DNA of 64,000 nt from Xanthocytophaga agilis (GTDB taxonomy: Bacteria > Bacteroidota > Bacteroidia > Cytophagales > 172606-1): NCBI RefSeq assembly GCF_030068605.1, contig NZ_JASJOU010000004.1, positions 434,001 through 498,000 on the forward strand. The letters run 5' to 3'. Shown here piece after piece: positions 35,206 through 54,754 of the stretch. Both the position numbers and the translations under genes were made by a program. Each line of letters begins with the position of its first letter. The first letter of the stretch is position 1. A model generated the notes under the pieces. It was not told where the DNA came from and ran no database searches. It saw nothing but the letters and a program-made list of their open reading frames with translations.

Positions 35206-36114
35206 TTGTGTTTCTTACCTAACAATACTGGATTAAACTACCTCATCCGTTTGCATTTTTCAGGACAACCTATCAAACAGTTTGATCTTACTCCACTGGC
35301 AAAGGCAGGAGTGTTTGTGATACATATCGGGAATGATGAACCGGAAGGAGGACATGATATCTTCAAGCCTCACCGTGACAGGCATTATATGTTGATTATT
35401 GCTCTGGGCGGATCTCTGAAGATGATGCTTGATTTTGAAGAGGTGCTGATAAATCAACCTTCTATGTTGCTGGTTTTTCCAGAGCAGGTGCATCATGTAG
35501 TTGAACTGAAAGATCCTCAGGGATGGGCTATTCACTTTGATCCTTCGCTGATTCAGGAGGAGTTTCAGCGTGTATTACAAACAGGCTTTGCCAAACCTCT
35601 GCTTTTTACGCAAACAGACACATTACAGGCTCAGGTAATTACCATTGCAAGTCTGATGCACCAACTCCAATCTGAAGTACCTACTACCTATACAGGAAGA
35701 ACTATGCATGAACTGCTGGCCGCCATCCTGAGTCTGCTGGCTGGAAAGTTCTCTCAGATGCCGGTTGGAAATAAATCCAAAGAAGGCCGTCCCTCTATTA
35801 TTGAACGGGATTTCAGCCAATTGCTATTACGTTATTATAAAACCTGGAAGCAACCATCCCAGTATGCACAGGCGTTGTCTGTATCTGTTTCACATCTGAA
35901 TGATACTGTCAAAGATATCAGTGGGTATCCGGTATCGGTACGCATACAACAAACATCCATTCTGGAAGCCAAACGATTGTTGTACTTTACTAATCTGAGT
36001 GTAAAAGAGATTGGCTATGAAGTTGGCTATGACAATCCGGTTTATTTTTCAAAGCTATTTAAAAAAGCCACAGATCTGACGCCACTGGAGTTTCGCCAGC
36101 AATTCCGCGATTAG
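35206..36114 (+). CDS. AraC family transcriptional regulator
   Basis: About 302 aa. N-terminal cupin-like sensor domain (FVIHIGNDEPEGGHDIFKPH, HYMLIIALGG) and a C-terminal AraC/XylS DNA-binding domain (about 195-302, YAQALSVSVSHLNDTVKDIS and VKEIGYEVGYDNPVYFSKLF). The frame has no ATG before the sensor domain: an in-frame stop lies at 35191, and only TTG codons at 35206 or 35251 can start it; 35251 gives an N-terminus closer to the family (MHFSGQPIKQFDL). It is likely to control the NAD(P)-binding protein gene downstream, as AraC genes often do, but a repeat separates them. Confidence 0.82.
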   Translation: MCFLPNNTGLNYLIRLHFSGQPIKQFDLTPLAKAGVFVIHIGNDEPEGGHDIFKPHRDRHYMLIIALGGSLKMMLDFEEVLINQPSMLLVFPEQVHHVVELKDPQGWAIHFDPSLIQEEFQRVLQTGFAKPLLFTQTDTLQAQVITIASLMHQLQSEVPTTYTGRTMHELLAAILSLLAGKFSQMPVGNKSKEGRPSIIERDFSQLLLRYYKTWKQPSQYAQALSVSVSHLNDTVKDISGYPVSVRIQQTSILEAKRLLYFTNLSVKEIGYEVGYDNPVYFSKLFKKATDLTPLEFRQQFRD

Positions 36115-38550: not shown

Positions 38551-38665
38551 CTTTTGATCTTGCGGGTGAGAGCATCGCCGGAGGTATCCTGTTCTTTAGC
38601 AAGCAAAAAATGAAGAAGCTACAAGTAGAGTGATGAAAACCACAATAAACAAACTCAGGACGATA
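38551..38665 (+). repeat. Partial family B repeat
   Basis: Only the 3' half is recognisable: TCTTGCGGGTGAGAGCATCG..., AGCAAGCAAAAAATGAAGAA, and GATGAAAACCACAATAAACA. Followed directly by a family D hairpin. Confidence 0.6.
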
Positions 38666-38679
38666 GCTTCCTCAAAACT

Positions 38680-38750
38680 AACCCAAGCCTACACTCTTTG
38701 CAAAAGTATAAGCTTGGGTTTTACTCATATCCTAAACTTGGGATGACTCA
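38680..38750. repeat. Family D hairpin repeat (copy 1), terminator-like
   Basis: AACCCAAGC...GCTTGGGTT stem (38680-38720) followed by TTTACTCATATCC and GGGATGACTCAT. Downstream of the chemoreceptor gene end (38763, minus strand); the run of A before the stem is short, so it may terminate plus-strand transcripts better. Confidence 0.75.
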
Positions 38751-38762
38751 TATAGTAGATAG

Positions 38763-40469
38763 TTACGCACCTACTGTATACTCACTCAGATCAATCGTAT
38801 TTTTCTTTTTGGACGCCTGTTCTGCCATTTTTTGAAGTTTTTGATAAGCAAATTTTTCCAGTTTAAAGAAAGAGATAACATCTTTCAGTTGTTCTGCCTG
38901 AGCCGATAGTTCTTCAGAGCTGGTTGCCATCTCTTCAGATGCTGCTGCATTCTGCTGAATTACCTGATTCAGTTGTTGTATAGCCAGACTTATTTGTTCC
39001 GTACCTGAATTCTGTTCCAGGCTTGCAGCTGATATCTCCTGCACCAGATGAGAGGTTTTCTGAATATTAGGCACCAGTTGCTCCAGTATTTTGCCTGATT
39101 TGTCTGCTGTCAGCACACTGGATTTGGATAGTCCGTCAATTTCCAAGGCTGCTGTCTGACTTCTCTCTGCCAGTTTGCGAACCTCTGCTGCCACAACGGC
39201 AAATCCTTTACCATGTTCTCCGGCACGGGCTGCCTCTACCGCTGCATTCAAGGCCAACAGATTGGTCTGACGGGCAATCTCACCTACAATGGAAATCTTT
39301 TCAGCAATAATCTTCATGGATGCGACCGTATTGCGTACCGATTCATTGCCTGTTTTGATATCTTCTGTTGCTTGCAGAGCAATCTTCTCGGTTTGTTGTG
39401 CATTGTCTGTATTCTGGCTTATGTTTGAACTCATTTGTTCAATAGATGAAGATACTTCTTCGATAGAGGCGGCCTGTTCGGTTGCTCCCTGAGATACCTG
39501 TTGAGCTGATGCACTCATCTGCAAACTGGCCGAAGCTATGTTATCAGCACCCTGCATAATCATGCCCATAATATCCCGCAGGCGATTGACCATCTCTGTT
39601 AATGCCGTATCCAGTTCGCCTTCTGCCTGATGACTTTGATCTATAGAAAGATCTCCTGCCGCCACACGTTTAGCCAGATCCACACTGGAACGTAACTTAC
39701 TGATCATATATCGAATCTGATCCAGCAGCGCACCTATTTCATCATGATCATAATCGTCAATGGTTACAGAGAAGTTGCCTGCAGCCAATGAGGTGATAGC
39801 ATCGTGTGCCTGTTTCAATGATTTTCGCAGTGAGGTAATGATCCAGAAGCCAATACCCGCAGCCACAAGTGCACCTATTCCTACCAACAGAAGCATTGTA
39901 GTTTGTCCATCTGCATAAATGGCTGCTGTTTCTTCTTTTGCTTTTGCCAGAGAGTCTTCATTGCGTTTTACTATTCTGCTCATAATGGCAGAAGACTCGG
40001 TGGCTATCTTTCTGTTTACTGTACTGGATAGCATATACGCTGCCTGGTTGCTTGAGTCTGTATTAAGTGTAAAGGCAAGATATTTTAGTTTCTTAAAGTT
40101 TTTATTATAGTCTTTCCATGCTGTTTGGAACTGTCCGATCAGCTCCTGATCTTCTTTGCTGGAGAGGGATTGCAACTCTTCCAATCGTTTACTCATATCG
40201 ACATTGCGTGACTCACTGTCATCAATCCACTCCTGCATCTGGTCCTTATCACGAGTGATAATCAAGTCTTTTTCTCTCTTGGTAATAAACTGGACATCTT
40301 CAGCAATTTTAGCTGATAAAGTGATTAATCGGGCATTTATATCGACAATCTGATTCACCCGTGCATTGATAATGCTGGTGTTGCGATTGCCCATAAAGAA
40401 GATCACTCCTGCTAAAAGCAGAAGTGCGGAAAACGCTAGAATTAGTTTTACTTTTATTGAGAGTTGCAT
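38763..40469 (-). CDS. Methyl-accepting chemotaxis protein
   Basis: 568 aa. Helix TM1 at 8-26, a periplasmic four-helix bundle sensor (about 30-190), TM2 at 191-212, HAMP (213-265) and a long signalling domain (about 300-545) with the conserved hairpin tip [20 protein letters not shown] followed by [20 protein letters not shown]. It should sense a signal in the periplasm and steer the CheA kinase. No che genes are in the window, so it is an isolated receptor; in gliding Bacteroidota such receptors may act on motility or other outputs. The ligand is unknown. The gene is monocistronic. Confidence 0.93.
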
Positions 40470-41167
40470 GCTCGTAAGACTTTTGGAAGCTTTTAGTAAT
40501 AGAAATACAGACTGATGAATCCAGAAGAGGCTATAGTATTTTGTTAATCTGGCCTTTGGGTATTACTTATTGAATTTTATATTGCCTGATAACATGTATT
40601 TTTTGCTAGTAAAATAGACTAATTTTCGCTAGTTATTTTTATTATATCGTTGTAATAGGTATGTGTGAACTTTTTTCTGTATAAGGTAGCAGGTAACGAA
40701 GGTCTTTTTCTTTTTTATTTGTATTGAAAAATATCCTGAAGTTTCTGATAAATAAACTGGAGTTCTGGTACTATTTAAAGTTAATTGCTCTTTATAGGTA
40801 TTAATTCAGGTAATAGATAAAGAAAAATTTTACTCCCGACAACTTCGCATCTCTACATAAAAACTACGAGTACTAATGTCCTGAACGGATGTGTTTTAGC
40901 TATAGATAAGTAATCAAAAGTAGAAAGAAAAATAACCAAAGGATATATGGTTTTGAGTAGATTCTTACATACTTCTGAATAGTAAGATTATGCTCTTGAA
41001 AGAGAGATGGAGAGGAGAAAATGCATAAAACCTACATTGTTCTTCAGAGTGAAAAACTCCAAAGAACAATGTACTTCTTATGTAAAATTTTGTCTTTGAA
41101 AGCTATAAACGTTCTTATCCACACACCGGAAATCAAACTTGCCAGTATGGTTGTATGATCTGAGCTA
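40470..41167. other. Intergenic region with one strong hairpin
   Basis: Nearly 700 bp, AT-rich and without coding signals. At 41034-41072 the arms ACATTGTTCTT and AAGAACAATGT, with inner GAGT/ACTC, form a strong hairpin; it may terminate the Crp/Fnr gene (ends 41168, minus strand), though no T run follows on that strand. Confidence 0.5.
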
Positions 41168-41749
41168 CTAGGAGGATACCAGTCTTTTTCGGATTCGGCT
41201 TAAGGATTGCGGTTTCACACCTACAAATGAAGACGTATAGTATTGAGGAATGCGTTGTTGTAAATCAGGATAGGTTTCCATAAAATGCAGATACCGTTTT
41301 TCAGGAGGATGTGTATACAGGGATGTGATCTTACGGATGGCGTCTACAAAAATCTGCTCACATACAATCCTGCCAAACTTTTGTCCTTCTCTGATCTGTT
41401 CATAAAACACCTGAAGATGATCATAGGAGATAGTCAGAAAGTGGCTATCCTCAATAAACTGGATATTTTTATTAGAGGCTGAGTGATCCAGAAAACTTTC
41501 ATAATTGCATATAAAGTTGCCTTCTTTTCCAAAGTCATAAATCATTTCCTCCCCATCATTATTGATAAAATACCGTATGAGGCCCTTTACAAGAAACCCT
41601 ACCTGACGACACACCTCACCCTCTTGCAGGAAATAGTCTCCTTTGGCAGCTGTCTTTTCTTTAAACAGCTGCTTTATACAGGTAATTTCTCGTTCATCAA
41701 GAGAAATTACACTACTGATAGCCTGAATTAGGGTGGTGTGCATGGACAA
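41168..41749 (-). CDS. Crp/Fnr family transcriptional regulator
   Basis: 193 aa. Effector beta-roll (about 25-115, AKGDYFLQEGEVCRQVGFLV, DGEEMIYDFGKEGNFIC) and a C-terminal winged helix with YYTSSFVGVKPQSLSRIRKR. Same short subtype as the protein at 29899-30486, with similar recognition helix ((V/K)(T/P)xSLSRIRKR), so the two may bind related sites. No Cys cluster for an Fe-S centre is present, so it is not a classical FNR oxygen sensor. Stands alone; targets unknown. Confidence 0.87.
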   Translation of the reverse strand: MSMHTTLIQAISSVISLDEREITCIKQLFKEKTAAKGDYFLQEGEVCRQVGFLVKGLIRYFINNDGEEMIYDFGKEGNFICNYESFLDHSASNKNIQFIEDSHFLTISYDHLQVFYEQIREGQKFGRIVCEQIFVDAIRKITSLYTHPPEKRYLHFMETYPDLQQRIPQYYTSSFVGVKPQSLSRIRKRLVSS

Positions 41750-42230
41750 TAAAAATTAAGCGTTTGTCTACGAAGCTAGGAGAAAACAGAGAAATGTCCT
41801 AACAGAATAAAAATGTTGAAACATGAAATACGGATCCCTAGAGTTTATGTTTGGTTGTATAGATGCCTAGGGCATTTTTTCCTGCAAGGTTGACTCCTTA
41901 TGTCGTCTCATATCTTTTCTGAAAATAAAGAAAGTCTCCGACGCAAGTATTTACCTCATGTTTTTAACTAAAGAGAGTTTATTTCTTTTTCTCTTGTTTC
42001 TTTCAGAAGGACAAATAGGGAGGGCGTTTTTTCTTAAGTTCACATCATTAAACAGATGTTGCTTTCAGATCCGAACAGGCATCTGAGCCAGTGTCTTCTT
42101 TCCTTAAACTATTGAAAAGCAATCTGAGAAAATGAATTTCAAAAGCAAACAGAGCCTATGCTAAAGCACAGACTCTGTATTACTATAGGTTAAGTTAGAT
42201 AATAAAAATACTCTTTCTAATATCAAACCA
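41750..42230. other. Intergenic region with repeat remnants
   Basis: Fragments of several repeat families: GTATAGATGCCTAGGGCATT and TTTTCCTGCAAGGTTGAC (family B), CTCATATCTTTTCTGAAAAT (family C end), TTTCTTTCAGAAGGACAAAT (family A right arm, about 41997-42014). At 42149-42177 a weak CAGAG...CTCTG hairpin may end the astacin gene. Confidence 0.55.
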
Positions 42231-43847
42231 TTATAATGGATATGGAATCGGATAGATGTATCCCCGGCGTGATATATTGTTGTTAGCGTCGGTCAGCCAG
42301 ATTCGTTCAAGCGTAGTGGCACACAGACTTTCTCCGGCTCCAGGTTGTAGAGTCCAGCTGTTTCCATTCCATTTATACAGATTCTTCTCCCACTTTTCTA
42401 ACATAAACAGTTTGTTATCAGGGCTAATACTGATGTCGTGTACCTGCTTGCCTAGTGGAAGCCACTCTACACCATTGTATAGAAATGGTTGATATTGGCT
42501 ATCAACAATAACAATAACATTATTGGAAAATGCAGCTATCTGATTGCCTCCCTTGTTACCACCTATTGCCGTCCAGGTTGCTGTGTTTTCATTCCATTTG
42601 AATATTTTATGCCCTCCTGGAGCTAGTTCTGTTCCAAGCCGGAATACACTTCCAATACTATTGATGGCAAGATCCACTGCCTGACCAGGTACCTGTTTCC
42701 ACTGATTATTAACCAGCCGATAAATGTATCCTCCGGCTGTGCAAAGCCAGGGTTGTCCATTAGGCATAACGGCTACATGTACACCTCCTTGGTCCGGATC
42801 AATATCTTGCCAGCTACTACCTGTCCACTTGGAAATAATATAACCACCAGGAGCATTTACTGTACCTACTTTGTAAATAGAACCATCTGCTCCCGCTACA
42901 ATTTCGCGTGCTTTACCTGCTATCGGATCAAAGGTGGGCGAAGCCGGATACATATCATTGATACAGTTGATATCTGCTTGAGAGAGTCCTTCTCTTTGTG
43001 CCTCATAGGTATTGCCACTGGTTGTTGTGATTACTGGTTTGGATGGATCAATAGCTGCTTTGGAAGAATAACTGCCATACAGCATAACAGAACCAAAATC
43101 AAAGTTACTGTGATCAAATCCATTGTAGCCAAACTCAGCCCATTTCTTAAACTGATCTCTTATAGCCTGATCGGATTTGATATTATTCCATTTGATAACC
43201 AAATGGTTATCCCGATCAGTACGGCTATGTTCATGGAACAGTCCTACTGCATGGCCTATTTCGTGAATAACAGTGCCTTTGGTGCAGTCTGGTCCCAGAA
43301 TAATAGACTGCTCCTGTGCCTGCATACCCACTGCTGATGAACAGCCTGCCCCGGGCATGAATACAATCCGATGGGATGCATTGGGATTGTTCACAAACTT
43401 CAGGTTTGTCGCCTCCTCCCAATGAGCAATAGCTTGTGTGACCCGTGCTGGATTAGGCAAGGCAGGATCTATTCTGTAATAGACCGTATTGTTAGGCCAG
43501 CGATAGGCCAACATATTACGACCTGTAGCCGACGTACGTCCATTGGGACTTTCCGAGCTTAGCATGTCTTCTGATAAGAGCATATCGCCTTGAAATACAG
43601 CCTGACCCTCTATTTCTTCATAGGTAACAGGTGAACCAAACAGATAACCTGTTTTGACGATTCCTCTTTTACCCGGAAAGGCTATTTCCAGATCTGCCGG
43701 ATTGCTTGTTGTTTCAGAGCCTACGGGTGCCGGATCTTTTACTTCACCCAGTGGTTCTTTACAGCTTTGTACAGATAAACTTAAACCGATAACACAGCCG
43801 GTAAATACTATGCGCAGTGTGCATGCATATAACATAGTTGATTGCAT
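42231..43847 (-). CDS. Astacin-family (M12A) metalloprotease lipoprotein with tectonin-like propeller
   Basis: 538 aa. Lipoprotein signal with Cys29 (LSVQSC). The astacin domain (about 113-308) has the zinc motif HEIGHAVGLFHEH: His195, His199, His205 and catalytic Glu196, and a Met-turn SVMLYG (253-258). The C-terminal half (about 310-538) shows repeats of about 40 residues with GxIYKV/W-G-W patterns (GADGSIYKVGTVNAPGGYII, PNGQPWLCTAGGYIYRL), a tectonin/TECPR-like beta-propeller likely used for binding. A secreted zinc endopeptidase held at the cell surface is predicted. Its promoter carries paired GTTACAATA boxes shared with two other loci. Confidence 0.9.
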   Translation of the reverse strand: MQSTMLYACTLRIVFTGCVIGLSLSVQSCKEPLGEVKDPAPVGSETTSNPADLEIAFPGKRGIVKTGYLFGSPVTYEEIEGQAVFQGDMLLSEDMLSSESPNGRTSATGRNMLAYRWPNNTVYYRIDPALPNPARVTQAIAHWEEATNLKFVNNPNASHRIVFMPGAGCSSAVGMQAQEQSIILGPDCTKGTVIHEIGHAVGLFHEHSRTDRDNHLVIKWNNIKSDQAIRDQFKKWAEFGYNGFDHSNFDFGSVMLYGSYSSKAAIDPSKPVITTTSGNTYEAQREGLSQADINCINDMYPASPTFDPIAGKAREIVAGADGSIYKVGTVNAPGGYIISKWTGSSWQDIDPDQGGVHVAVMPNGQPWLCTAGGYIYRLVNNQWKQVPGQAVDLAINSIGSVFRLGTELAPGGHKIFKWNENTATWTAIGGNKGGNQIAAFSNNVIVIVDSQYQPFLYNGVEWLPLGKQVHDISISPDNKLFMLEKWEKNLYKWNGNSWTLQPGAGESLCATTLERIWLTDANNNISRRGYIYPIPYPL

Positions 43848-43936
43848 TGTTTGTAAGTTGTTTTTATTTAGGTAGTGTATTACAATGTCTTGTCACCGCA
43901 ACTGTCCCGGGCTGGTTGTGGTGACGAAGACAGGAG

Positions 43937-44002
43937 CAAAAGTATAGGGAAGAGAGGAGGGAGGGTTATTACTATTGTAACTGAGTTTGCTCTTATTGTA
44001 AC
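43937..44002 (-). promoter_or_regulatory. Paired-box promoter of the astacin lipoprotein gene
   Basis: On the minus strand: GTTACAATA (43994-44002), 12-bp gap, GTTACAATA (43973-43981), 28-bp gap, then the -7 box TACTTTTG (43937-43944). No TTTG is found 19 bp upstream of the -7 box, so an activator on the repeats probably replaces it. The same spacing is found at 49905-49970 and 47705-47770. Confidence 0.75.
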
Positions 44003-44139
44003 GCTTGGAAAAAGAAGACCAGGAATCCTGTAAGATGTTGATTGTCTGTGAGATTTATAATGGGTTTTTGATGAGAGCAGGGTTGGGGAGAGCAGAAATG
44101 GAATGTTGTGTCCGCTACTTTGGTACAAAAAGAGTCTTG

Positions 44140-44310
44140 TCAGGTTTGTGATAGTATCCAAAAAGGTTTTTAACAACCAACGCAGCGTCTGCTCAATGCT
44201 GTCAACTTAAGGTAGTTTGAGTGGTTTTCTTAAGTTAACTGCATTGAACGGACGTTCAAACCAACGCTATCTTTTTAGAACCTTCATTTCCAGAAAAAAT
44301 CTGAGACAAG
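44140..44310 (-). repeat. Family C repeat (copy 2, rearranged)
   Basis: CAGGTTTGTGATAGTATCC, AACCAACGCAGCGTCTGCTC, GCTGTCAACTTAAGGTAGTT, then the inverted match CTTAAGTTAACTGCATTGAA, CGGACGTTCAAACCAACGCT and TTTTTAGAACCTTCATTTCC. The two halves, joined around GTCAACTTAAG and CTTAAGTTAAC, form a large imperfect palindrome. Confidence 0.65.
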
Positions 44311-44316
44311 ATAAGG

Positions 44317-44398
44317 AGCCAACCTCGCGGGAAAAGGAATCCCTATGCACTTACAGGGCCTTCCACGAGTAAAGTCATCTTTGCTCTCTTTGTGGCTC
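44317..44398 (-). repeat. Family B repeat (partial copy, inverted)
   Basis: GCCAACCTCGCGGGAAAAGG and TTTGCTCTCTTTGTGGCTCC are the complement of the family B start. Only the first 80 bp are kept; the inner hairpin partner is missing. Confidence 0.65.
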
Positions 44399-44487
44399 CT
44401 TTGTTTTGCTTTCATGAAAGAAAATAACTTTTTTTTCTTAAAATTTGAGATAACGTATGTGATGAATTATGTATAAGTTTCCTCGGG

Positions 44488-47400
44488 TTACACCACTGAG
44501 GCAACTTGCCGGGCCAGGTATTCGCTGGGAGTACAATCAAACTGTTCACGGAAGCACTTGGAGAAGTATGGCAGATTATCAAAGCCTACCTGATAGGCCA
44601 CATCTGAAACATTGCCAGCTCTGGCATCAAGCAGTTGAGCGGCTCGTTTCAATCGCATGCTGCGCAAAAATTCGCTGGTCGACTGTCCGGTCAGGGCGGT
44701 GAGTTTGCGATGGAGCTGCATACGGCTCAGGCCTGCTTCACGGGCAAATTCTTCAGACCCAAATTCTGTATTACTCATATTCTCCTCTACCACCTTCAGA
44801 ATACGTTCCAGCAGCTTTTCATCTACCGAACTAACCGCTATATCCGAAGGGGCAATCCGAATTTGTTTGCTAAACCGTTCGCGTAGTTTACGGCGACTTT
44901 CCAGCAAATTACCTACACGTAACCGTAATTCCCGGGCATCAAAGGGTTTGGTCAGGTAATCATCCGCACCTGTCTGAAGTCCCTGTAGTTTGCTTTCCTG
45001 AGTAGCTAATGCCGTTAGCATAATCACTGAAATATGATTGGTGCGTTCATCGGTTTTTAAGCGTTCACATAGTTCCGTACCACTCATTTCGGGCATCATC
45101 AGGTCTGTAATAACCAGATCCGGAATCTGGGCTAGTGCTGTGTCAAATCCTTCTTTCCCATTGCTACTTTCAAGAATGCGATAGGGGCCTTCCAGATGCT
45201 TTCGAATATAGGCACGTAAATCGTCATTGTCTTCTACGATCAGTATCAGTGGTTGTTCATTGCCAGCAACAGTATCTATATCATCTGTAGATTCAACAGA
45301 TGCATTATCAGCTATCTGTTCATAGGATGTTGTAGTAGTAGCAATGGAAGGTATAGGCTCTATATCTGTAGTAGAGCATGGAGCCAATGGCAGTTCGATG
45401 ACAAACCGGGTGCCCTGAAGTGCATCACTGGCTACATATACCTGGCCACCATGCAACTGAACCAACTCTTTTACCAATGCCAGCCCAATACCTGTACCTT
45501 GCTGGTCACTATAATGCTGAGAACCCTGATAAAACCGTTCAAAAACAGAGTTCAGCTGTTCAACAGAAATACCGCTGCCACTATCCTGTACAGTAATTTT
45601 TAATCGGGGAAGTGCATCTGTAACAGAAGGAAGGACTTCTGCCCGAAGGGATACCTCTCCATTGTTAGGCGTAAATTTAAAGGCATTGGATAGCAGGTTG
45701 GCAAAAATCTTATGGAGTTTGTCTGAGTCAAAGGCATAATATAACTCCTTTGCCGGCAAATCCAGTTTGAATGCAATTTCACGAGATTCAGCCAGAGACG
45801 AGAACGAAGCCGTGAGTAGACGAAAGAACTGACTGAGATTACCTGCCTGTGGCTGTAAGTGCATCTTCCCGGATTCCAGTTTGGATAGATCCAGCAATTG
45901 ATTGATCAGCTCTAGCAGGCGACCTGCATTACGATGCATACTGGTTACTTCTCCAGAACCAAAAGAAAGCGTTTCCGGATGGCCAGCACCTTTGCCAGCT
46001 TCCAGCTTATCCTGCAGATTGCCCAGAATAAGTGTTAATGGTGTACGAAATTCATGGGATATATTGGCAAAGAATGTAGACTTTACCTGATCCAGTTCTT
46101 TTAATTTCGTTGTTTGCTCTGCCAGTTGTCTGGATTGTTGACTAAGTGTTTCATTGATGATAGATAGTTGCTCGGACTGGGAGGATAGTAGTTCATTGGT
46201 ATGGGCAAGTTCCTCATTTTTCTGGCTGATTTCCAGGCTTTTTTCAACCAGTAACCGATTGTTTCGTATTTTCAGTCGCTGACGGCTCACAATCAGTCCG
46301 CCAATGATCAGAGTTGCCAGCAAGCCCAGTCCAATAATATTGCGTAGTAATGCTTCCTTTTCGCTTTCTTTTTTCAGAAGTTCAATCTCTGCCTGTTTCT
46401 TTTCAGTTTCGTAGTCTGCCTGTAATTTGGCAATCTGACGGGTGTTCTCGTCATTGCGGAGTGAATCCTGCGTTTGGATAAACCGTGACTGATAGTCGTA
46501 AGCTTGCTGGTATTTTTTCTGCCTGGAGGCCAGTTGTGATAAGAGTTGGTAAAGTTCTGCCACCAGACTTTTGATTTCCATCTGTCGGGCCATTTGCAGT
46601 GCCTGCTGTGCATTGGCTTCACTTTTTGTTAATTCATCTGTTTTCTGGTATACATAGGCCAGTCCTGTGAGGACATACGGTATAGTATAGGGATCTTTCA
46701 CTTCCTGCTGAAGTCTTAACCCCTGATTAAGATATTCAAGTGCTTTGGAATACTGTTGAAGGCCTCCATCCGGTAGTCCGCCATATACCAGACCCATATT
46801 GATAAAACAGGCAGCCTGAATATCTTTATCCTGTTCTGTAAGCCCGTCTAAGGCTTTGGTAAAATAAGGCAATGCTTTCTGATACTCTTTCTGTCGCATA
46901 TGCAAATCCCCGAGATTGTTCAGTACCTGGCTTACCGGCCTTCCTCTGGTGAAACGTTTTTTCTTTAGTTCCAGTGACTTCTGATAATATACAATGGCTT
47001 GGGGATAATCTTCCAGTTCACTGTATATATTACCCAGGAAGTTATAGATATTGGCTATCCGGATGTCATCTTCCAGCTTTTCTGCAATTTTCAATCCTTT
47101 CAGATAGTACTCAGTAGCTTTGGGACGGTTATCCTGTTTGTGATAGACCATACCAATATTAAGCATCAGGGCCAGCTCTCCTGGTAAATCGCCAAGTTCC
47201 TGGGAGAGTGGTAATGCTTTATCATAGTATGCCATTGCCTGTGCATATTTATTCTGATGCGAATAGCCTATACCCAACCGATTGAATGCCTGAGCCATTC
47301 CTTTCTTAAAATCCAGTTGCTGACTAAGCTGTAATGCCTGGGTAGCATAGGCAATGGCTTTGGCAGGGTCAGCAGCATTGTAGTGAAAGCTTAGTTGATT

Positions 47401-47631
47401 CAATACATTGATTCGGCTTGTGTCTTTGGCAAGTTTTAATTGCTGTAGCAGGCTATCTGCTTCAGTATCTTGTGCCTGAAGTACAACAACAGCGAAAAGC
47501 GCTGCTATTGTGAGCAGACAGGCCTTACCTAGCCATGTGGTATGCCCTAACGGAACAGAAGAACATACACAAAGATGTTGGGGCCCTCTCGCTTTGTGTA
47601 GTGTGTAAGGAGTTTGGTTCTTTGATATCAT
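44488..47631 (-). CDS. Hybrid two-component sensor: TPR, histidine kinase, receiver, AraC output
   Basis: 1047 aa. A signal-like hydrophobic segment (about 34-52), a periplasmic TPR array (about 80-395), a membrane helix at 431-449, a coiled-coil linker (455-515), a histidine kinase with phospho-acceptor His526 (SHEFRTPLTL), N-box NLLSNAFKFTPN (646-657) and DSGSGIS / GTGIGLALVKEL, a receiver domain (795-910) with Asp843 (VITDLMMPEMSG) and Lys895 (TKPF), and an AraC-type output domain (940-1047). It is a one-protein signalling system like the HTCS glycan sensors but with TPRs as sensor. It faces a divergent promoter with paired GTTACMATA boxes, and is a candidate regulator of these. Confidence 0.93.
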   Translation of the reverse strand: MISKNQTPYTLHKARGPQHLCVCSSVPLGHTTWLGKACLLTIAALFAVVVLQAQDTEADSLLQQLKLAKDTSRINVLNQLSFHYNAADPAKAIAYATQALQLSQQLDFKKGMAQAFNRLGIGYSHQNKYAQAMAYYDKALPLSQELGDLPGELALMLNIGMVYHKQDNRPKATEYYLKGLKIAEKLEDDIRIANIYNFLGNIYSELEDYPQAIVYYQKSLELKKKRFTRGRPVSQVLNNLGDLHMRQKEYQKALPYFTKALDGLTEQDKDIQAACFINMGLVYGGLPDGGLQQYSKALEYLNQGLRLQQEVKDPYTIPYVLTGLAYVYQKTDELTKSEANAQQALQMARQMEIKSLVAELYQLLSQLASRQKKYQQAYDYQSRFIQTQDSLRNDENTRQIAKLQADYETEKKQAEIELLKKESEKEALLRNIIGLGLLATLIIGGLIVSRQRLKIRNNRLLVEKSLEISQKNEELAHTNELLSSQSEQLSIINETLSQQSRQLAEQTTKLKELDQVKSTFFANISHEFRTPLTLILGNLQDKLEAGKGAGHPETLSFGSGEVTSMHRNAGRLLELINQLLDLSKLESGKMHLQPQAGNLSQFFRLLTASFSSLAESREIAFKLDLPAKELYYAFDSDKLHKIFANLLSNAFKFTPNNGEVSLRAEVLPSVTDALPRLKITVQDSGSGISVEQLNSVFERFYQGSQHYSDQQGTGIGLALVKELVQLHGGQVYVASDALQGTRFVIELPLAPCSTTDIEPIPSIATTTTSYEQIADNASVESTDDIDTVAGNEQPLILIVEDNDDLRAYIRKHLEGPYRILESSNGKEGFDTALAQIPDLVITDLMMPEMSGTELCERLKTDERTNHISVIMLTALATQESKLQGLQTGADDYLTKPFDARELRLRVGNLLESRRKLRERFSKQIRIAPSDIAVSSVDEKLLERILKVVEENMSNTEFGSEEFAREAGLSRMQLHRKLTALTGQSTSEFLRSMRLKRAAQLLDARAGNVSDVAYQVGFDNLPYFSKCFREQFDCTPSEYLARQVASVV

Positions 47632-47704
47632 CCTTTGAAGCGGGTAGTGAAAAAATACTATAAAGAATGGCCTGGCAGCAAGATTTTGTCCATTTCAGGA
47701 CTAT

Positions 47705-47770
47705 GTTACCATACTATAAAACAGAGTTACAATACTGTTAACAGCTACTATATCTCAGACTATACTTTTG
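47705..47770 (+). promoter_or_regulatory. Paired-box promoter upstream of the DinB-like pseudogene
   Basis: GTTACCATA (47705-47713), 12-bp gap, GTTACAATA (47726-47734), 28-bp gap, TACTTTTG (47763-47770). Architecture identical to the boxes at 43.9 and 49.9 kb but on the plus strand. It lies 74 bp upstream of the divergent hybrid-sensor gene start. Confidence 0.72.
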
Positions 47771-47877
47771 CCATCGTCTCTGATAGCATTGGAGATGAAG
47801 TAATTTGCTTGTTTACCAGGCTCTTATCTTAACAATACACATTAGTTAACTTTCACGCTTTATTGTAAACTTCAATT

Positions 47878-48363
47878 ATGAAAACCATTCACATCGTTAT
47901 TGTTTTTTTATTTAATTGTATTCTTTCATGCACTGTTTCTGCACAGGAAGTGAGTCAGTAGACAGAAGAGGAGCGAAAGTATCTACTGGACAATCTGATT
48001 CGAACCCGTGATGAGGTTGTTAAACAGACAGCACAACTGACTGCTAAAGTTAACGAAGCCTGACAGTGTGATCCTGGATTTCTTGCTGGATGAAACGCCA
48101 CATAGTACTACTGATTATACCGAACCGTTCACCTTTAGTGTACCAATGGGATTGGATGAAGGAAAGAATACACTGGCCTGGTCCTGAAAATGCGAAGCGA
48201 ATCTATTGCTTACCTCACCAAAGCTCCTGAAGATTTACGTTTGTATTTCCTACGGGCTGGGAGACCGAGTGTACAGCAAGTATATATCAATGTGTTTGGG
48301 CATATTGACCGCCATCTGCGACAAATCAAAAAAGTAAAGCAACACCCCAATTACCCACGTTAG
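47878..48363 (+). pseudogene. Decayed secreted DinB-like gene
   Basis: Starts with ATG and a good signal peptide (MKTIHIVIVFLFNCILSC ... SAQ), then stops (TAG) after EVSQ. The reading continues in frame as TEEERKYLLDNLIRTRDEVV, the typical first helix of DinB-superfamily proteins, until a second stop (TGA). After frame changes, SVILDFLLDE and GLDEGKNTLAWS are readable, and finally AYLTKAPEDLRLYFLR ... YINVFGHIDRHLRQIKKVKQ HPNYPR, the usual DinB C-terminus with its His-x3-His. The metal-binding middle is largely missing. The intact family comprises metal-binding four-helix proteins of mostly unknown function. Its promoter still looks intact. Confidence 0.75.
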
Positions 48364-48619
48364 AAAGATAATCTGAACATGTTCCTATAAAACAGATTTA
48401 TCCTGAAAGCCAGTCATGCCTGTAGAGCTATTCTTTATGGGCGTGGCTGGTTTTGTTTTGAAATTTCTGCTCTTGATCCAAAAGGAGAATCCTTTGACGG
48501 CATTTCTAGTTGTATAAAAATTGATAACAACATTTGTTTATCTTGCTGAATGAAGTGTTCTTAAGGAAATAGTTATCTCTTTCCTCTAAGGTCTTTCAAC
48601 TGAAGTATACATATGATCC

Positions 48620-48996
48620 ATGAGTCATCCCAACTTTTGAGTAAAAGGGTATCATTGAGAAATGATAAAAAATGTCACAAGGAGAGCTGCGATTCCTTTA
48701 AACGCGAGTGGTTGTGTAGGTGCGTAGGAATAAAAATTCCGCGGGTCTAGCGATAGCCCTGCGGGGCGAAGCTTTGGAATTTTTTGCCCTTTTTTGCACA
48801 CACACAAATCTGGCTCACCAAATTCTCATTTGGTGCCCTGTTTTGGACAAGCAAAAAATGAAGAAGCCTAGGGAAGAATAAGGTAAGGGGCTATAAACCA
48901 ATTCAGAAAGAAACATCTCTCAAATGAACCCAAGCCCATATTTTTCAAAAATATAGTCTTGGGTTTTACTCATATCCAACATTCGGGATGACTCAT
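48620..48996 (+). repeat. Composite repeat (families B and D) with terminal inverted repeats
   Basis: A 377-bp unit bounded by ATGAGTCATCCCAA (48620-48633) and TCGGGATGACTCAT (48983-48996). Inside: family B copy 6 (from 48671: CACAAGGAGAGCTGCG; stem TAAAAATTCC ... GGAATTTTT, with CCGC...GCGG and GGG-CTA-GCGA-TAG-CCC nested hairpins; CACCAAAT-TCTC-ATTTGGTG hairpin), and a family D hairpin (AACCCAAG...CTTGGGTT, 48927-48965). MITE-like in form. No gene inside. Confidence 0.8.
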
Positions 48997-49443
48997 GTTG
49001 TTATGAGCTACTTTCATGAGAACAGAAAGAGATTTTCCGGAATCCTTTACCTTAATTTGACACTACTGTGTTTATATCGACAAATATATTTACCAGATAG
49101 CACAAACCTGAATGTAACTTTAATGATGCCAACCCAACGGCTCCTGAATGCTCTCAACTGAAGAGTTTTAAGCAGTAAAGTCTATTTTTTGCTACTCTCC
49201 CTGGCCTCCTGTAAGAATGTCCCCCTCTCCGTCTTTCAGAAGGACAAAAAAGGTACGAGGATCAAAGGAGAGAAACTCTCTTTAGTGGATAGCCTTGGGT
49301 AGACACTTGCGCCGGATACTTCTTTATTTCTAGAAAAGTATGAAATTAGAAAAGGAATCAAAGTTCAAATTACAGTAGGTTAAATAAAAAAGCGCCAAGT
49401 TGGTAAACCTGACGCTTCTCCATTTTACTACAAACGTATTACA
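48997..49443. other. Intergenic region with family A remnants
   Basis: A decayed family A left arm (GGCCTCCTGTAAGAATG, about 49203) and a right arm (GTCTTTCAGAAGGACAAAAA, about 49231-49250). A hairpin at 49385-49417 (AAGCG...CGCTT with a T run on the minus strand) is the likely terminator of the small lipoprotein gene. Confidence 0.6.
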
Positions 49444-49821
49444 CTAATCTTCATACTTAAGACGTATTTTCTTGCAGTAATTAGCTTCAAAATTGAGATC
49501 AGTATTCCAGGAAGTTACATATTCGCCGTTTTTGTAGGCCGTAGCCTTTAGCGTGTGTGTACCTGCTGTACGTTCAGCCCGAAGTATAGCTCCCGGACTA
49601 GTGGTTTCACATACAGGAGTGTCCATATAGGGCGCTGTAAGTGTTCCTGCTACCTCGTTATCAATCTTAATCTCGATTTGATCAAATTCAACATCCGGCA
49701 TATTGGTATAGAGCTGATACGAACCCAGATTAGCTGGTTTTATATTCTCTTTGTCTTTACAGCCGAATGTAGTTACGAAAACAAGTACTAAGAGAGCGAA
49801 TGTGCTGATTGTGCGAATCAT
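49444..49821 (-). CDS. Small lipoprotein of unknown function
   Basis: 125 aa. The lipobox TTFGC gives an anchored Cys21. The rest (about 100 residues) has alternating beta-strand character (YQLYTNMPDVEFDQIEIKID, GTHTLKATAYKNGEYVTSW), like a small Ig-like or carboxypeptidase-regulatory-like sandwich, and two further Cys (about 70 and 116) that may form a disulfide. No family recognised. It shares its promoter layout (paired GTTACAATA boxes) with the astacin lipoprotein gene, so both are probably made under the same condition. Confidence 0.72.
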   Translation of the reverse strand: MIRTISTFALLVLVFVTTFGCKDKENIKPANLGSYQLYTNMPDVEFDQIEIKIDNEVAGTLTAPYMDTPVCETTSPGAILRAERTAGTHTLKATAYKNGEYVTSWNTDLNFEANYCKKIRLKYED

Positions 49822-49904
49822 AGTTGTAAATGAATAAATGAAGTGAAAATAAAATAGTGTTTGTTTTTGTTTTCCCTCTGCCGATTAGCAGATTGAAGAT
49901 GGGA

Positions 49905-49970
49905 CAAAGGTATGGCCAGGAGGTTTTGAGGGGTTATTACTATTGTAACAGTATCTGTTACTATTGTAAC
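49905..49970 (-). promoter_or_regulatory. Paired-box promoter of the small lipoprotein gene
   Basis: On the minus strand: GTTACAATA (49962-49970), 12-bp gap, GTTACAATA (49941-49949), 28-bp gap, TACCTTTG (49905-49912). The 19 bases GTTACAATAGTAATAACCC at the proximal box are identical to those at the astacin promoter. Leader length about 75-80 nt. Confidence 0.75.
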
Positions 49971-50060
49971 CAACCGCAAAAAAGCCTCATTTGACCAAAT
50001 AGGCGATAGGGAAAGAAGCGAGAGAAGCAAAAAAAAGCAGAAAAAGTCGCCCCGTAATCC

Positions 50061-50419
50061 ATGACTCATCCCAAATTTTGAGGAAAAGACTATTGCCTCC
50101 TTTAGAAAAAGAGAAACAAAGGAGCTACAAAGAGAGCCAAGATAACTTCAATCTGTGTGGTCGTGTAGGTGCGTGAAGATAAAAATTCCGCGGGCCTAGC
50201 GTTGGCCTGTGGGGCGAAGCTTTGGAATCTCTTGTCCTTTTTGGGGTATTACGCCGTGGCATGACAAAAAAGTACCATGACAGGTAGAGTGAAGAAGGAG
50301 ACAATAAACTGACTCAACTAAATAGATGCTCAAAAATTAATCAGCGCCTATACTCTTTTCAAAAGTTTAGGCTCTGATTTTGTAAAACAAATACCCATCC
50401 AAAATTCAGAATGACTCGT
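50061..50419 (+). repeat. Composite repeat (families B and D), second copy
   Basis: Bounded by ATGACTCATCCCAAATTTTG (50061) and CAAAATTCAGAATGACTCGTG-like end (to 50419). Holds family B copy 7 (from 50126; stem AAAAATTCC...GGAAT; GGGCC-TAGCGTT-GGCCT inner hairpin; an ACGCC-GT-GGCAT hairpin) and a family D hairpin with a changed but still paired stem (AATCAG...CTGATT, 50339-50379). Confidence 0.78.
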
Positions 50420-50671
50420 GTACATCAGAAATAAGTCGGAAAGGAGGTCATTCTACCAAAATTTCTTCTACAAATCACCTGATTTGATAATTCTCATAAA
50501 AATGTGTAATTTTTTTCCAAGAAAAATTGTATTAATTTAGACAGGCGAAGCTCCCAGACTGTCAAAAATAGTACATATTATTCACCAAGCATCCCAATTG
50601 ATTGATATTCAGTTAATTTAAAGGTATTGGTAATTACACTATTTGTAATTCATCCTATTTTCATTTCTCTT

Positions 50672-51193
50672 ATGGGTAAGAAAGTATTGGTATTAAATCA
50701 GGATTATTCAGCTCTCACGATCTGCAGTGTAGAAAAAGCCTTTATTCTTGTATTTCTGGACAAAGCAGAGTTAGTGAGTGAATCACAATCAAATTATTTA
50801 CGAAGCATATCTTCTACATTTCCGATGCCTTCCATCATTCGGTTGCATCGGTATGTGCATCTGCCTTTCAAAGGGGTGATCCTGACCCGGCAGAACATTT
50901 TTAAACGAGATGGACATCGGTGCCAGTATTGTGGTACACACGAAGACCTGACCCTTGACCACGTATTGCCTAAGTCACGTGGTGGCAAGTCGTCCTGGGA
51001 CAATCTGGTGGCTGCCTGCCGGCGATGCAACGCCCGTAAAGGTGACTACACCCCGGAAGAAGCCGAAATGGCCCTGAGACAAAAGCCCTATCGTCCGTCG
51101 TTTATTATGTTCCTGCGTGATTTTTCAGGACACCTAGAAGATGACTGGCATCCGTATCTGAGTAAAAAGATGAAAGCGTTTGATTACGAATAA
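50672..51193 (+). CDS. HNH endonuclease family protein
   Basis: About 173 aa from the ATG at 50672 (a TTG 45 bp upstream is in frame but unlikely). N-terminal MGKKVLVLNQDYSALTICSV, then an HNH nuclease core with zinc-binding CQYCG ... CRRCN (Cys pairs at about 89/92 and 125/128) and the HNH motif LDHVLPKSRGGKSSWDNLV. This stand-alone type is common and chromosomal in Bacteroidota and cyanobacteria; its biological role is unsettled (repair or DNA processing). 32 bp upstream of a PH-domain protein gene, probably co-transcribed. Confidence 0.92.
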   Translation: MGKKVLVLNQDYSALTICSVEKAFILVFLDKAELVSESQSNYLRSISSTFPMPSIIRLHRYVHLPFKGVILTRQNIFKRDGHRCQYCGTHEDLTLDHVLPKSRGGKSSWDNLVAACRRCNARKGDYTPEEAEMALRQKPYRPSFIMFLRDFSGHLEDDWHPYLSKKMKAFDYE

Positions 51194-51225
51194 CGCTTTC
51201 TTTTCCACTTATTTACTGACAGATT

Positions 51226-51660
51226 ATGGAAGCTACCATTTTCTATTCGCGGAAAAATGCCTTTACAGTCATCACGTTTGGCGTCATTGCACTGATTCTG
51301 GTGGCAGTAACAGTGCTTACTTTGTGGACTAAGCCGCTTTCGATGGTATGGATTCCGGTTGTAGTGGTACTGGCAGTATTGGTCTGGGTATGGACACGCA
51401 CTTTTTATAGTATTGACGGAAACTATCTCTACTACCAATCGGGGCCAATACGTGGCAAAATAGCCATCTCACAAATACGGCAGATGGATGTCAATCAAAC
51501 ACTATGGGTAGGCTTTCGCCCTGCTTTGAGTACAGGCGGAATTATCATTCATTACAATAAGTGGGATGAGATCTATATTTCTCCAAAAGACAGCGACAGA
51601 TTTGTTGCAACTCTAACTACGGCTAATGAGAACATACAGGTGAATGTAAAGGAGACCTAA
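51226..51660 (+). CDS. Bacterial PH-domain membrane protein
   Basis: 144 aa. Two N-terminal membrane helices (about 14-33 and 39-57) and a cytoplasmic domain with strands FYSIDGNYLYYQSGPIRGKI, ISQIRQMDVNQTLWVGFRPA and IIIHYNKWDEIYISPKD, typical of the bacterial PH-like (PF06713-type) family. Function of these small proteins is unknown. It follows the HNH gene by 32 bp. Confidence 0.82.
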   Translation: MEATIFYSRKNAFTVITFGVIALILVAVTVLTLWTKPLSMVWIPVVVVLAVLVWVWTRTFYSIDGNYLYYQSGPIRGKIAISQIRQMDVNQTLWVGFRPALSTGGIIIHYNKWDEIYISPKDSDRFVATLTTANENIQVNVKET

Positions 51661-51684
51661 TTTAGGTGGCCTGCATATCCTGAT

Positions 51685-52965
51685 TTATATTTTTGGTGAC
51701 AGTTTCAGTTTTAGAATCAATGGTTTTTTTAGCTTTTCGGAGTGGGTATAGGAGCCATCCGGATTCAGATTGCGTAACTGGCTGTTGGCAATATAGAAAA
51801 ACTCATCTCCCACAATTGTTCCTGTAGTAGGAATCACAAAGTCCGGATGAAAAGACTGGAGGGTTTGGGCTTTGGCAAGCTTCTTCTTGTCTTTATCCAG
51901 ATACAGCCGTATAATCCGGTCGTCATTATTCCCCGAATCCTGGATTGCGACAAGTGTACCTTTGTAGATATATAATCCATCAATACCATTCAGGTAGGTT
52001 ACCTGGTTAGTTGCAATCCGGTAATAGTTGCCTGTGGTGAGTTCTATACGGATTAGGCCTGTCAAATCAGCTACATAAAGATTTTCTTCTTTTTCATCCA
52101 TCGCAATGCCATTGGGGTAGATGAAGTCGACTTCTTTCGGTAACGGTACTATCTGGTTGGTATTGGGTTGGATAGTGAGTACCTGTCCGCCTTTGCTATC
52201 GGTAAAGTAAACGGCATTTTTGCGGGTAACCACTATGTCATTGAAAAGGTGTGCTCCGGTTTTGTTGTCCAGCAGATACTTGTGACGCAGTTTTCCAGTA
52301 GAAATGTCATACTGGAAGATGCCGGAATACCCATTCAGCGAATCTCTTTCAGATGCGCTGCATACCCATAGCGATTGACCATCTTTGCTTACTTTCATCC
52401 CCAGCACCGAAAACATCCCATCCTGTTGAGAAGCTACCCAGTCGTGCTCGCCTGCCAGTGGGGTATAAGAGGCAATCTTATTTTTAGCTAGGCTGCCGAT
52501 AAAAAATTGTTCTCCCTGTGAGGTTGCTGCAATGCCTTCCGGAATCAGTAACGGGTCTGACAGCTCAAATGCTTTTGAGCTGTTTTGTACAGGCTGTCGG
52601 TTTTGGGCAAACTGCTCACGAATCTTTAGGAAATTTTTATGGGTTGTCAGTGCCTGAAAGTTTTCGTTTTCCTCTGGTTGGTAGGGAAGCCCCAGCACGG
52701 CTAGCTGGCCAAGTAAGGCGAGACTTTGCTCAGTAAGGCCTGACTGACATTGACATTGGGCCAGTTTGTATAACACATTGGGATGTTCCAGCCGTTTTTG
52801 CAACTGAGATCCAATGTTTACACACTGGCTATAGTCTTTAGCAGTATACACTTGTATGAATTTCTGATACTGGGCAAGTATGCTCAGGGAATCTGAAGAG
52901 GATTGTGCCTGCAGAGAGGTTACACAGGTTAATAACATACAGGCACTACTCAGAAGAGCTTTCAT
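51685..52965 (-). CDS. Secreted SMP-30/gluconolactonase-like beta-propeller protein
   Basis: 426 aa. Signal peptide 1-21 (LLTCVTSLQAQ). Residues about 30-115 look helical and TPR-like (YTAKDYSQCVNIGSQLQKRL, VLYKLAQCQCQSGLTEQSLA); 130-426 form a six-bladed propeller of SMP-30/NHL type (FIYPNGIAMDEKEENLYVAD, HLFNDIVVTRKNAVYFTDSK, YLNGIDGLYIYKGTLVAIQD). The D/N pattern of the metal site of SMP-30 is partly kept, so lactonase activity is possible but not shown. Secreted or periplasmic. Convergent with the PH-domain gene (25 bp apart). Confidence 0.82.
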   Translation of the reverse strand: MKALLSSACMLLTCVTSLQAQSSSDSLSILAQYQKFIQVYTAKDYSQCVNIGSQLQKRLEHPNVLYKLAQCQCQSGLTEQSLALLGQLAVLGLPYQPEENENFQALTTHKNFLKIREQFAQNRQPVQNSSKAFELSDPLLIPEGIAATSQGEQFFIGSLAKNKIASYTPLAGEHDWVASQQDGMFSVLGMKVSKDGQSLWVCSASERDSLNGYSGIFQYDISTGKLRHKYLLDNKTGAHLFNDIVVTRKNAVYFTDSKGGQVLTIQPNTNQIVPLPKEVDFIYPNGIAMDEKEENLYVADLTGLIRIELTTGNYYRIATNQVTYLNGIDGLYIYKGTLVAIQDSGNNDDRIIRLYLDKDKKKLAKAQTLQSFHPDFVIPTTGTIVGDEFFYIANSQLRNLNPDGSYTHSEKLKKPLILKLKLSPKI

Positions 52966-53200
52966 AAGTGAACCGATTGGCTTTGTGGTAGTTATACAAG
53001 TGTTTTGTTTAAAGATAGGAGTAGAAGATATATGAGGGAAACAGATAGTGATATATGGAAATTAGGTTACCTGATTGGTTTGCTTATACTTATTCCTGCC
53101 TTGTTTCCTGGAGGGATTTAAGAATATGATAGGATCATTCGCTTTTACACCGTTATTTTACTGATGCTTTCAGAGCCAACATCAGGTACAAGATTTATAC

Positions 53201-53797
53201 ATGTATTCACAACAAAACTGGACACCCACAGAAGTAGCCACCTTTGTCCTGGAACTCCGGCGGGTAATAAACTGGACACAAAGACTTGCCGCAAACTTTG
53301 ATCCCACCCATGAATCCTATGGCAGAGTATTTCGGCAGACTAATCCTGAGATAGGAGGCACAAAATTGTATACATTTGAAGAGAATGGTGGCTATCGCTG
53401 TGACACAGACAAATACTATCCTGATCACTTGAGAGAAATGCTTCAACTGGCAAAAAATGCCAGACCACACTATGCCACTGAAGATTTGAAGGAACTACTG
53501 AAACAAGGAAGAGTATTGTCCTTCGAAGCATGTAACACCACTTGTGATGGAGCAGCTGAGCATGAGAGTAAGACTTTTTTTGATCTGGGTGATACACCAC
53601 CCATTGATACATGGTTTTTTCTGAAAGAGAAGTACCTGCATGCAGATCGTCTTTGTGAGCAAGCCTTGTTTTGCTGGATACCCAGAGCATTTGAGTCAGT
53701 TGTTCAGGCAGGAATAGATGTAGAGGTCTATGAAAGCTATCGGTGGCTGGACGAAAACGATCCGTATATGTATTATACCATACAGTCGGTTTATTAA
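53201..53797 (+). CDS. Hypothetical cytoplasmic protein
   Basis: 198 aa, not recognised. No signal peptide or membrane helix. It contains a largely helical N-terminus (TEVATFVLELRRVINWTQRL), an acidic and aromatic-rich composition, and four Cys, two in ACNTTC (residues about 111-115) and two later (about 152, 159), possibly a metal site. The frame has a normal codon pattern and stands alone between the SMP-30-like and the reductase genes. No function can be proposed. Confidence 0.62.
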   Translation: MYSQQNWTPTEVATFVLELRRVINWTQRLAANFDPTHESYGRVFRQTNPEIGGTKLYTFEENGGYRCDTDKYYPDHLREMLQLAKNARPHYATEDLKELLKQGRVLSFEACNTTCDGAAEHESKTFFDLGDTPPIDTWFFLKEKYLHADRLCEQALFCWIPRAFESVVQAGIDVEVYESYRWLDENDPYMYYTIQSVY

Positions 53798-53901
53798 TGA
53801 AACAGGATCAAGGTTATTTCTTTGTATGCATAATAGAAAGAAGGCCTGGCTATTACTCCGTAATTTTCTGAAAATTATAGTTTAACAACCAGGCCATACG
53901 T

Positions 53902-54537
53902 TTATCTGGAGCCGGCTGCCTTTTGCATCTCCTGCAACGACATTGGCTTGTTGTAAAATAGCTGGTCTACTTCCATCACTTTGGAGTCTGCTATACTCCC
54001 TACATCCAGCACATCAAAACCTATTTCATGTAATAGATCTGTAACCTCCTTCTTGGCCGTTTCGCGATTACCGGCAATAGGTAATGCATACCGGCTACCT
54101 TCCGGACGAAAAGCATAATCGCGTAAATTCACAAAGTAGATTGTATTCAGCGCCTTAACCACAGAGGCCATAGGGAAGGAATCTACGGTAAGCTGAGTTT
54201 CCCGAAGATCCGGATTTTGCCGGACCCGTTCGGCAATTTCACCATCCCGTTGCGGATAGGCGTTGCAGGTATCAATCAATGTCTTGCCATGTACAAACGT
54301 ACCCACCTGTTCGGCTACCTCAGGAATTTTCCCGTAGGGAATGGATAACACCACGAGACTACCGGAATCTGCTGCTTGTGCAATAGTGCCTGCCTGTGCG
54401 TTAGATCCCGCCTGTCTGACAAGGTCTGCCAGCTGTTCAGGATGGCGGGAACTAAACATAACCTGATGCCCCGCTTTGGCGAGATGAAGTCCAAAATTGC
54501 CTCCTATATGGCCTGATCCAATAATTCCGATATTCAT
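53902..54537 (-). CDS. F420-dependent-reductase-like NADP-binding protein
   Basis: 211 aa. The N-terminus MNIGIIGSGHIGGNFGLHLA holds the GxGxxG dinucleotide motif (7-12), followed by VMFSSRHPEQL with an Arg suitable for the NADP phosphate, and LVVLSIPYGKIPEV. This matches the F420-oxidoreductase / NADPH-dependent reductase family (PF03807 type). Outside F420-making organisms such proteins use NADPH on unknown substrates. Single gene; a family A repeat lies upstream. Confidence 0.87.
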   Translation of the reverse strand: MNIGIIGSGHIGGNFGLHLAKAGHQVMFSSRHPEQLADLVRQAGSNAQAGTIAQAADSGSLVVLSIPYGKIPEVAEQVGTFVHGKTLIDTCNAYPQRDGEIAERVRQNPDLRETQLTVDSFPMASVVKALNTIYFVNLRDYAFRPEGSRYALPIAGNRETAKKEVTDLLHEIGFDVLDVGSIADSKVMEVDQLFYNKPMSLQEMQKAAGSR

Positions 54538-54754
54538 TATGCTGGTTGTATTTACGTTGAAAAAATGGTTTAGTGATTGTAATGTGTTGTAAATCAGTGG
54601 TTAACAAAAGGATTGTGTGAGATTGTTTTCCAAACACAGGCCAGGAATGACATGCTATAAAAGCTCTCTATTGGTTTTTAGAAAAGATAATTCTTTCTGT
54701 CATTCTGCAAGATACACTCTCCTCCCTGTCATCCTGAAAGGATCGGTCCCTTTC

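Follow-up and report, generated by a model that had tools for sequence, protein, structure and literature searches.

The window analysed here is a stretch of 64,000 nucleotides of Xanthocytophaga agilis DNA (contig NZ_JASJOU010000004.1, positions 434,001-498,000 of the forward strand, assembly GCF_030068605.1; C4:434001-498000), from a genome (G000) of 9,768,099 bases in 66 contigs. It contains a block with four genes only, coding for an astacin lipoprotein, a hybrid two-component regulator (HTCS), a broken exported protein and a small lipoprotein, and there is neither a SusC/SusD pair nor any sugar enzyme among them (Table 1). The Pfam domains of the regulator are HisKA (residues 517-588), HATPase_c (635-750), Response_reg (796-906) and HTH_18 (963-1040), with TPR repeats in the N-terminal part, and kinase, receiver and AraC-type output thus lie in one chain, as is characteristic of an HTCS. 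The translation, read by eye, has a hydrophobic stretch near the start and another ahead of the kinase, and because these flank the TPR part we place that part, provisionally, in the periplasm. The TPR part aligns with the NCBIfam FimS model at residues 39-307, with 174 bits, far below the 600-bit cut-off.

Table 1. Features of the locus in window coordinates; the assignments as target and activator are proposals.
Feature	Coordinates	Strand	Description and basis
8,632-bp block	41815..50446		Absent from G006, which has 1,030 unrelated bp between matching flanks
Target 1	42231..43847	-	Astacin (M12A) lipoprotein with tectonin-type part, 538 aa; Pfam, lipobox read from translation
Site 1	43937..44002	-	GTTACAATA-N12-GTTACAATA-N28-TACTTTTG; 90 bp before astacin lipoprotein gene
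Regulator (HTCS)	44488..47631	-	1047 aa; TPR, HisKA, HATPase_c, receiver, AraC-type HTH_18; Pfam; proposed activator
Site 2	47705..47770	+	GTTACCATA-N12-GTTACAATA-N28-TACTTTTG; between regulator start and broken gene
Target 3	47878..48363	+	Broken exported gene, weakly DinB-like in last 30 residues; stops, pairwise matches
Target 2	49444..49821	-	Small lipoprotein, 125 aa, no Pfam family; lipobox by rule
Site 3	49905..49970	-	GTTACAATA-N12-GTTACAATA-N28-TACCTTTG; before small lipoprotein gene

The third gene had been described as a DinB-like pseudogene. Its frame is indeed interrupted by stops, with an export signal present, and the likeness to DinB is weak: neither of two pieces tested has a Pfam DinB match, and one of them aligns with the DinB_2 protein encoded at locus L121 (see below) at 8 of 30 residues (E 3e-5 in a single comparison), the other having no match to that protein. 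The astacin part of the first gene product scores 178 bits with the NCBIfam LegP model, a resemblance that falls short of the cut-off of 300.

Three sites of 66 bp each match the pattern GTTACNATA-N12-GTTACNATA-N28-TAYNTTTG without a mismatch, and their positions, sequences and constant spacing are exactly those of the original prediction. The direct-repeat boxes are 21 bp apart at all three, and inspection of the sequences confirms that TTTG, the usual -33 element, is missing from that position in every copy. In the whole genome the box pair alone has 20 matches with up to two mismatches (three exact, one with one mismatch and 16 with two), and the three exact pairs in 9.77 Mb are those of sites 1-3, all within 6 kb. 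A reversed control pattern gives 46 matches at the same threshold, and we therefore regard the pairs with mismatches as background. When the -7 box is included there are five matches with up to three mismatches, the three exact ones and two at three mismatches, compared with one for the control. Since the exact box pair is confined to 6 kb of the genome, it marks a local cluster rather than a scattered regulon. A genome-wide regulon is rejected, there being no exact site outside the block in the whole genome; the genome scan proposed with the original prediction thus gave a third outcome, in which the exact pattern is not genome-wide but restricted to the block of the sensor.

The block is absent from G006, a genome of the same genus that is listed as 100% complete. 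Window segments 38599-41814 and 50447-54691 match G006 at 92% and 96% identity respectively (overall 92-97%), and because these flanks are only 1,030 bp apart there, the regulator, the three sites and the three targets are absent as a unit. In G006 the regulator has no match at 1e-150 and the astacin none at 1e-20, and there is no exact site; one match with three mismatches is present, as is one for the control. Gain in the window genome and loss in G006 cannot be told apart from the comparison of the block, and if the block is a single insertion or loss the joint absence from G006 would follow anyway. A MITE-like element at 48619-48997 (~380 bp) has terminal inverted repeats of 13-14 bp (CATGAGTCATCCC), and a second, partial copy beginning at 50060 is close to where the block ends on the right. 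G006 has similar stretches in many places, and these elements might have helped the gain or loss of the block. Window segment 38103-38544 also has many copies in G006, 80-93% identical.

Relatives of the regulator are found at a threshold of 1e-150 in six of the eight genomes of the family and at 1e-170 in six of the sampled 148 genomes of the order, its own included in both counts. The window and 20 fetched regions were scanned for 9-bp pairs 21 bp apart, with at least 7 of 9 positions alike and 27-29 bases before TAnnTTTG, the letters GTTAC not being used. The locus of the closest orthologue (L121, 55%) has GTTACATTT-N12-GTTACATCT-N28-TACTTTTG (8 of 9), and in L122 (43%) the regulator is flanked by two sites, each with 7 of 9. 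L123, in which the sensor part differs and the kinase-to-AraC identity is 54%, has GTTACAATA-N12-GTTACATAT-N28-TAGCTTTG (7 of 9), a site also recovered by the genome pattern search, and two copies (7 of 9) accompany L134, a canonical HTCS of the X. agilis genome. Further pairs in L121, L124, L129 and L140 (7 to 8 of 9) are taken as chance. In the AraC region, the identity to the window regulator is 60% for L123 and 58% for L121. The paired-box promoters of L134, at 13773 and 15201, are identical and 1,428 bp apart, and one of them precedes a TonB-type receptor-like frame.

A unit consensus (GWWACMNNNGTGTT) was read from L121, L122, L156, L054 and L099, and was then counted in those same loci too. 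Among 18 TPR-type loci, unit pairs with up to three mismatches occur 12 times at a period of 21 (including one place counted on both strands in L156 and two overlapping pairs in L047), once at 22, and not at all at 16-20 and 23-27. In six of the 18 loci they are no more than 5 kb from the regulator and in L049 8.4 kb from it, and no consensus pair at this threshold is present in 11 of the 18; L155 has a four-mismatch pair in the same N28 register 6.8 kb away. The spacing to the -7 box is N28 in the window, L121, L123 and L155, and one base less in L122, L156, L054 and L099. At the window sites the left half of the orthologue unit is retained but the right half is a poor match (4, 5 and more than 6 mismatches out of 22). 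A consensus-free best-score test gives a weak signal at offset 21, both in TPR loci (4 of 19, versus 0-3 of 19 at other offsets) and in canonical loci (3 of 14, versus 0-2). Taken together, paired 21-bp boxes at nearly the same distance from TAnnTTTG stand beside several relatives, but 11 of the 18 TPR-type loci have none. A pair resembling the orthologue consensus is also present in the window at 17872-17908, on both strands with three mismatches, 26.6 kb from the regulator and with no TAnnTTTG box behind it.

The genes behind the sites differ among these loci. Five proteins compared for target homology between loci, two from the window and three from L121 and L122, matched only themselves among 101 sequences, and neither the astacin nor the lipoprotein target is conserved in the loci of the regulator's relatives. 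Astacin matches are found in two of the eight family genomes, the window's own and G005, and in the latter they lie in two places far from the TPR regulator of that genome. The L121 DinB_2 protein likewise has matches in two of the eight, is absent from G000, and in G003 is encoded on a contig other than that of the regulator. In L121 itself the site is followed by a small lipoprotein gene and then by the DinB_2 gene. From translations read by eye, the gene directly behind the site starts as a lipoprotein at two of the three window sites, in L121, at the minus-strand sites of L122 and L156, in L047, at both plus-strand sites of L054, and in L099. Exceptions are the plus-strand site of L122, which precedes a TonB-dependent receptor gene, the minus-strand site of L054, with a frame of 1172 aa behind it, and the plus-strand site of L156, which precedes the regulator itself; in L049 the site is followed by a 224-aa frame lacking a lipobox, and the remaining window site by the broken gene. 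A crude lipobox rule is positive in 6 of 19 TPR loci, of which at least two are spurious while several real ones are missed, and in none of 19 canonical loci.

We propose that the three sites are, with good probability, the local target set of the HTCS encoded between them. The original prediction had one regulator acting on all three promoters as an activator seated at the repeats, with the hybrid sensor and its AraC output as first candidate, and both points gain support, the choice of regulator from the occurrence of the same promoter geometry beside the sensor's relatives. From the arrangement of domains and boxes we infer phosphorylation, binding, activation and the distance to the transcription start as follows. 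The putatively periplasmic TPR part would receive the signal, upon which the kinase would phosphorylate the receiver within the same chain and the AraC outputs of a dimer would bind the two direct-repeat units, which at 21 bp are two helical turns apart. The TAnnTTTG box is the -7 element of Bacteroidota promoters; assuming that it acts as such here, the proximal unit, which starts 37 bp before it, would have its centre near -42. A protein bound at this position could contact RNA polymerase and so compensate for the absent -33 element, and the astacin lipoprotein, the small lipoprotein and the now broken exported gene would be switched on.

It is unlikely that a regulator from elsewhere binds the boxes and that the hybrid sensor is a mere neighbour. 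For LytTR regulators such as AgrA, ComE and VirR the binding sites are paired 9-bp direct repeats at a distance of about two helical turns (~21 bp), and the genome has 45 LytTR matches; a free AraC regulator is also encoded at 35206-36114, 8 kb from site 1. However, none of the 45 LytTR matches is on the 588-kb contig C4, and the regulator linked to the sites has an AraC output, so the LytTR alternative raised originally is not supported. Binding by an outside regulator, whether LytTR or AraC, also leaves unexplained why the hybrid sensor has all exact sites around it within 6 kb, why its relatives have the same geometry beside them, and why sites and sensor are jointly missing from G006.

Still less probable is that the sites are remnants of the duplication of one promoter segment within the block and no longer work as binding sites. 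Sites 1 and 3 do have ten further bases in common after the proximal box, and one of the target genes is broken. Against this, the N12 spacers are alike at 5-6 of 12 positions and the N28 spacers at 10, 12 and 17 of 28 among the three sites, and their 100-bp flanks are alike at 25-34 of 100, which is the chance level. Conservation is mainly in the boxes, and selection on the boxes would leave them intact in this way amid diverged spacers and flanks. That AT-rich promoters resemble each other by chance can be dismissed, for although a single box is common and nothing special (the window has 26 places within one mismatch where 21 are expected), the three-box pattern with up to three mismatches is found in the window at sites 1-3 only and in none of 100 dinucleotide shuffles, and with independent bases the exact pattern is expected ~1e-7 times per genome (the box pair alone ~0.015).

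Returning to the HTCS as the regulator of these promoters, both the regulator class and the site class, direct repeats ~21 bp apart, are known. Predicted motifs have been described for 16 of 36 HTCSs of B. thetaiotaomicron, all of them direct repeats an average of 21 bp apart, with HTCS dimers proposed to occupy one face of the helix (Ravcheev et al. 2013, PMC3878776), and receiver-AraC proteins have been tested on promoters with such predicted sites (PMC11253607). The HTCSs of Bacteroides polysaccharide loci, as presented in these sources, resemble the window regulator in having sensor, kinase, receiver and AraC output in one chain, and in acting through direct repeats ~21 bp apart, a spacing found here at three exact sites and beside several relatives, on targets adjoining the regulator gene (PMC3878776, PMC11253607). 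They differ in that the window sensor consists of TPR repeats, that its block is without a SusC/SusD pair or sugar enzymes, and that it would act on the genes of an astacin lipoprotein and a small lipoprotein and on a broken exported gene. In Porphyromonas gingivalis, GppX is a natural kinase-regulator hybrid with reported effects on surface proteases and on many hypothetical proteins; the likeness lies in the hybrid chain and these effects, and the regulon reported for GppX is broad whereas that of the window is a local cluster (PMC5706477). FimS of the same species is a periplasmic TPR sensor, but it signals to a separate regulator, FimR, while the window protein carries its own receiver and AraC output (PMC11053733, PMC5706477).

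The original prediction had also stated that no matching regulon was known. This does not hold for the class of motif, the 21-bp direct repeats being those described for Bacteroides HTCSs (PMC3878776), but our literature search returned no report of this particular regulon. Nor did it return a paper on a TPR-type HTCS, a looser search being judged by the titles of the matches listed. The window's promoter geometry is not described in the portions of PMC11501099 and PMC10994844 considered here, and PMC12125979, in the portion considered, concerns another regulator. The distance from the repeats to the -7 box is unmentioned in the portions of the HTCS motif papers considered here, and we claim no novelty for it. 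What is new is the TPR type of sensor, the secreted lipoprotein and astacin-protease targets in place of sugar uptake, and the block-wise presence.

Regulator, sites and promoter geometry are thereby assigned within a Bacteroidota regulator class that has been studied mostly for sugar use, and the rule seen in these loci, a pair of direct-repeat units at a 21-bp period whose proximal member begins 36-37 bp ahead of TAnnTTTG, could be of use in predicting the target promoters of orphan HTCSs from sequence. Since a TPR-type sensor here comes with target promoters capable of driving a reporter, the signal of such sensors becomes testable. As a speculation that we consider rather doubtful, TPR-type hybrid regulators may be self-contained envelope modules in which the TPR sensor monitors lipoproteins after their export, perhaps those made under its own control or misfolded ones, with sensor, paired-box promoters and non-homologous small lipoproteins coming and going as one block.

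The 21-bp geometry was also counted near HTCSs in general, using the best 80 of 445 named HTCS loci. Pairs of 9 bp with at least 7 of 9 positions alike before TAnnTTTG number 264 at period 21 and 31-100 at each of 17 other periods from 14 to 31 (992 boxes; the counts overlap, one site being able to appear at several gaps). At 1308 boxes in 99 loci, the stretch ~20-40 bases ahead of the box has raised self-identity at offset 21. As to coding periodicity, the value is 8050 at offset 21 compared with 7372-7585 at offsets 12, 15, 18, 24, 27, 30 and 33. Coding DNA slightly raises offsets divisible by three, 21 among them, which means that codon periodicity could account for some of the raw excess. 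A stricter score provides a cleaner test than these raw counts. With it, 15 of the 478 boxes that are no farther than 4 kb from an HTCS match have a 21-bp pair before them, versus 0-3 at 18 other offsets, compared with 6 of 345 boxes beyond 5 kb of an HTCS (versus 0-4) and 0 of 162 in sequence not chosen for HTCSs (versus 0-3). TTTG at -33 is present in none of the 15 paired sites and in 27 of 463 other boxes, a difference that is not significant. These 15 sites come from 15 of the best 80 loci, four of them of one genus, Marinilabilia.

Two further observations concern the units themselves. At L047 14092-14147, before a lipocalin-like lipoprotein gene, there are three tandem units in 21-bp steps, not two. 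The single orthologue units at L156 4355-4391 and L121 8074-8108 are palindromes (AACA-N3/4-TGTT), which would suit an AraC part whose two helix-turn-helix motifs read mirrored halves.
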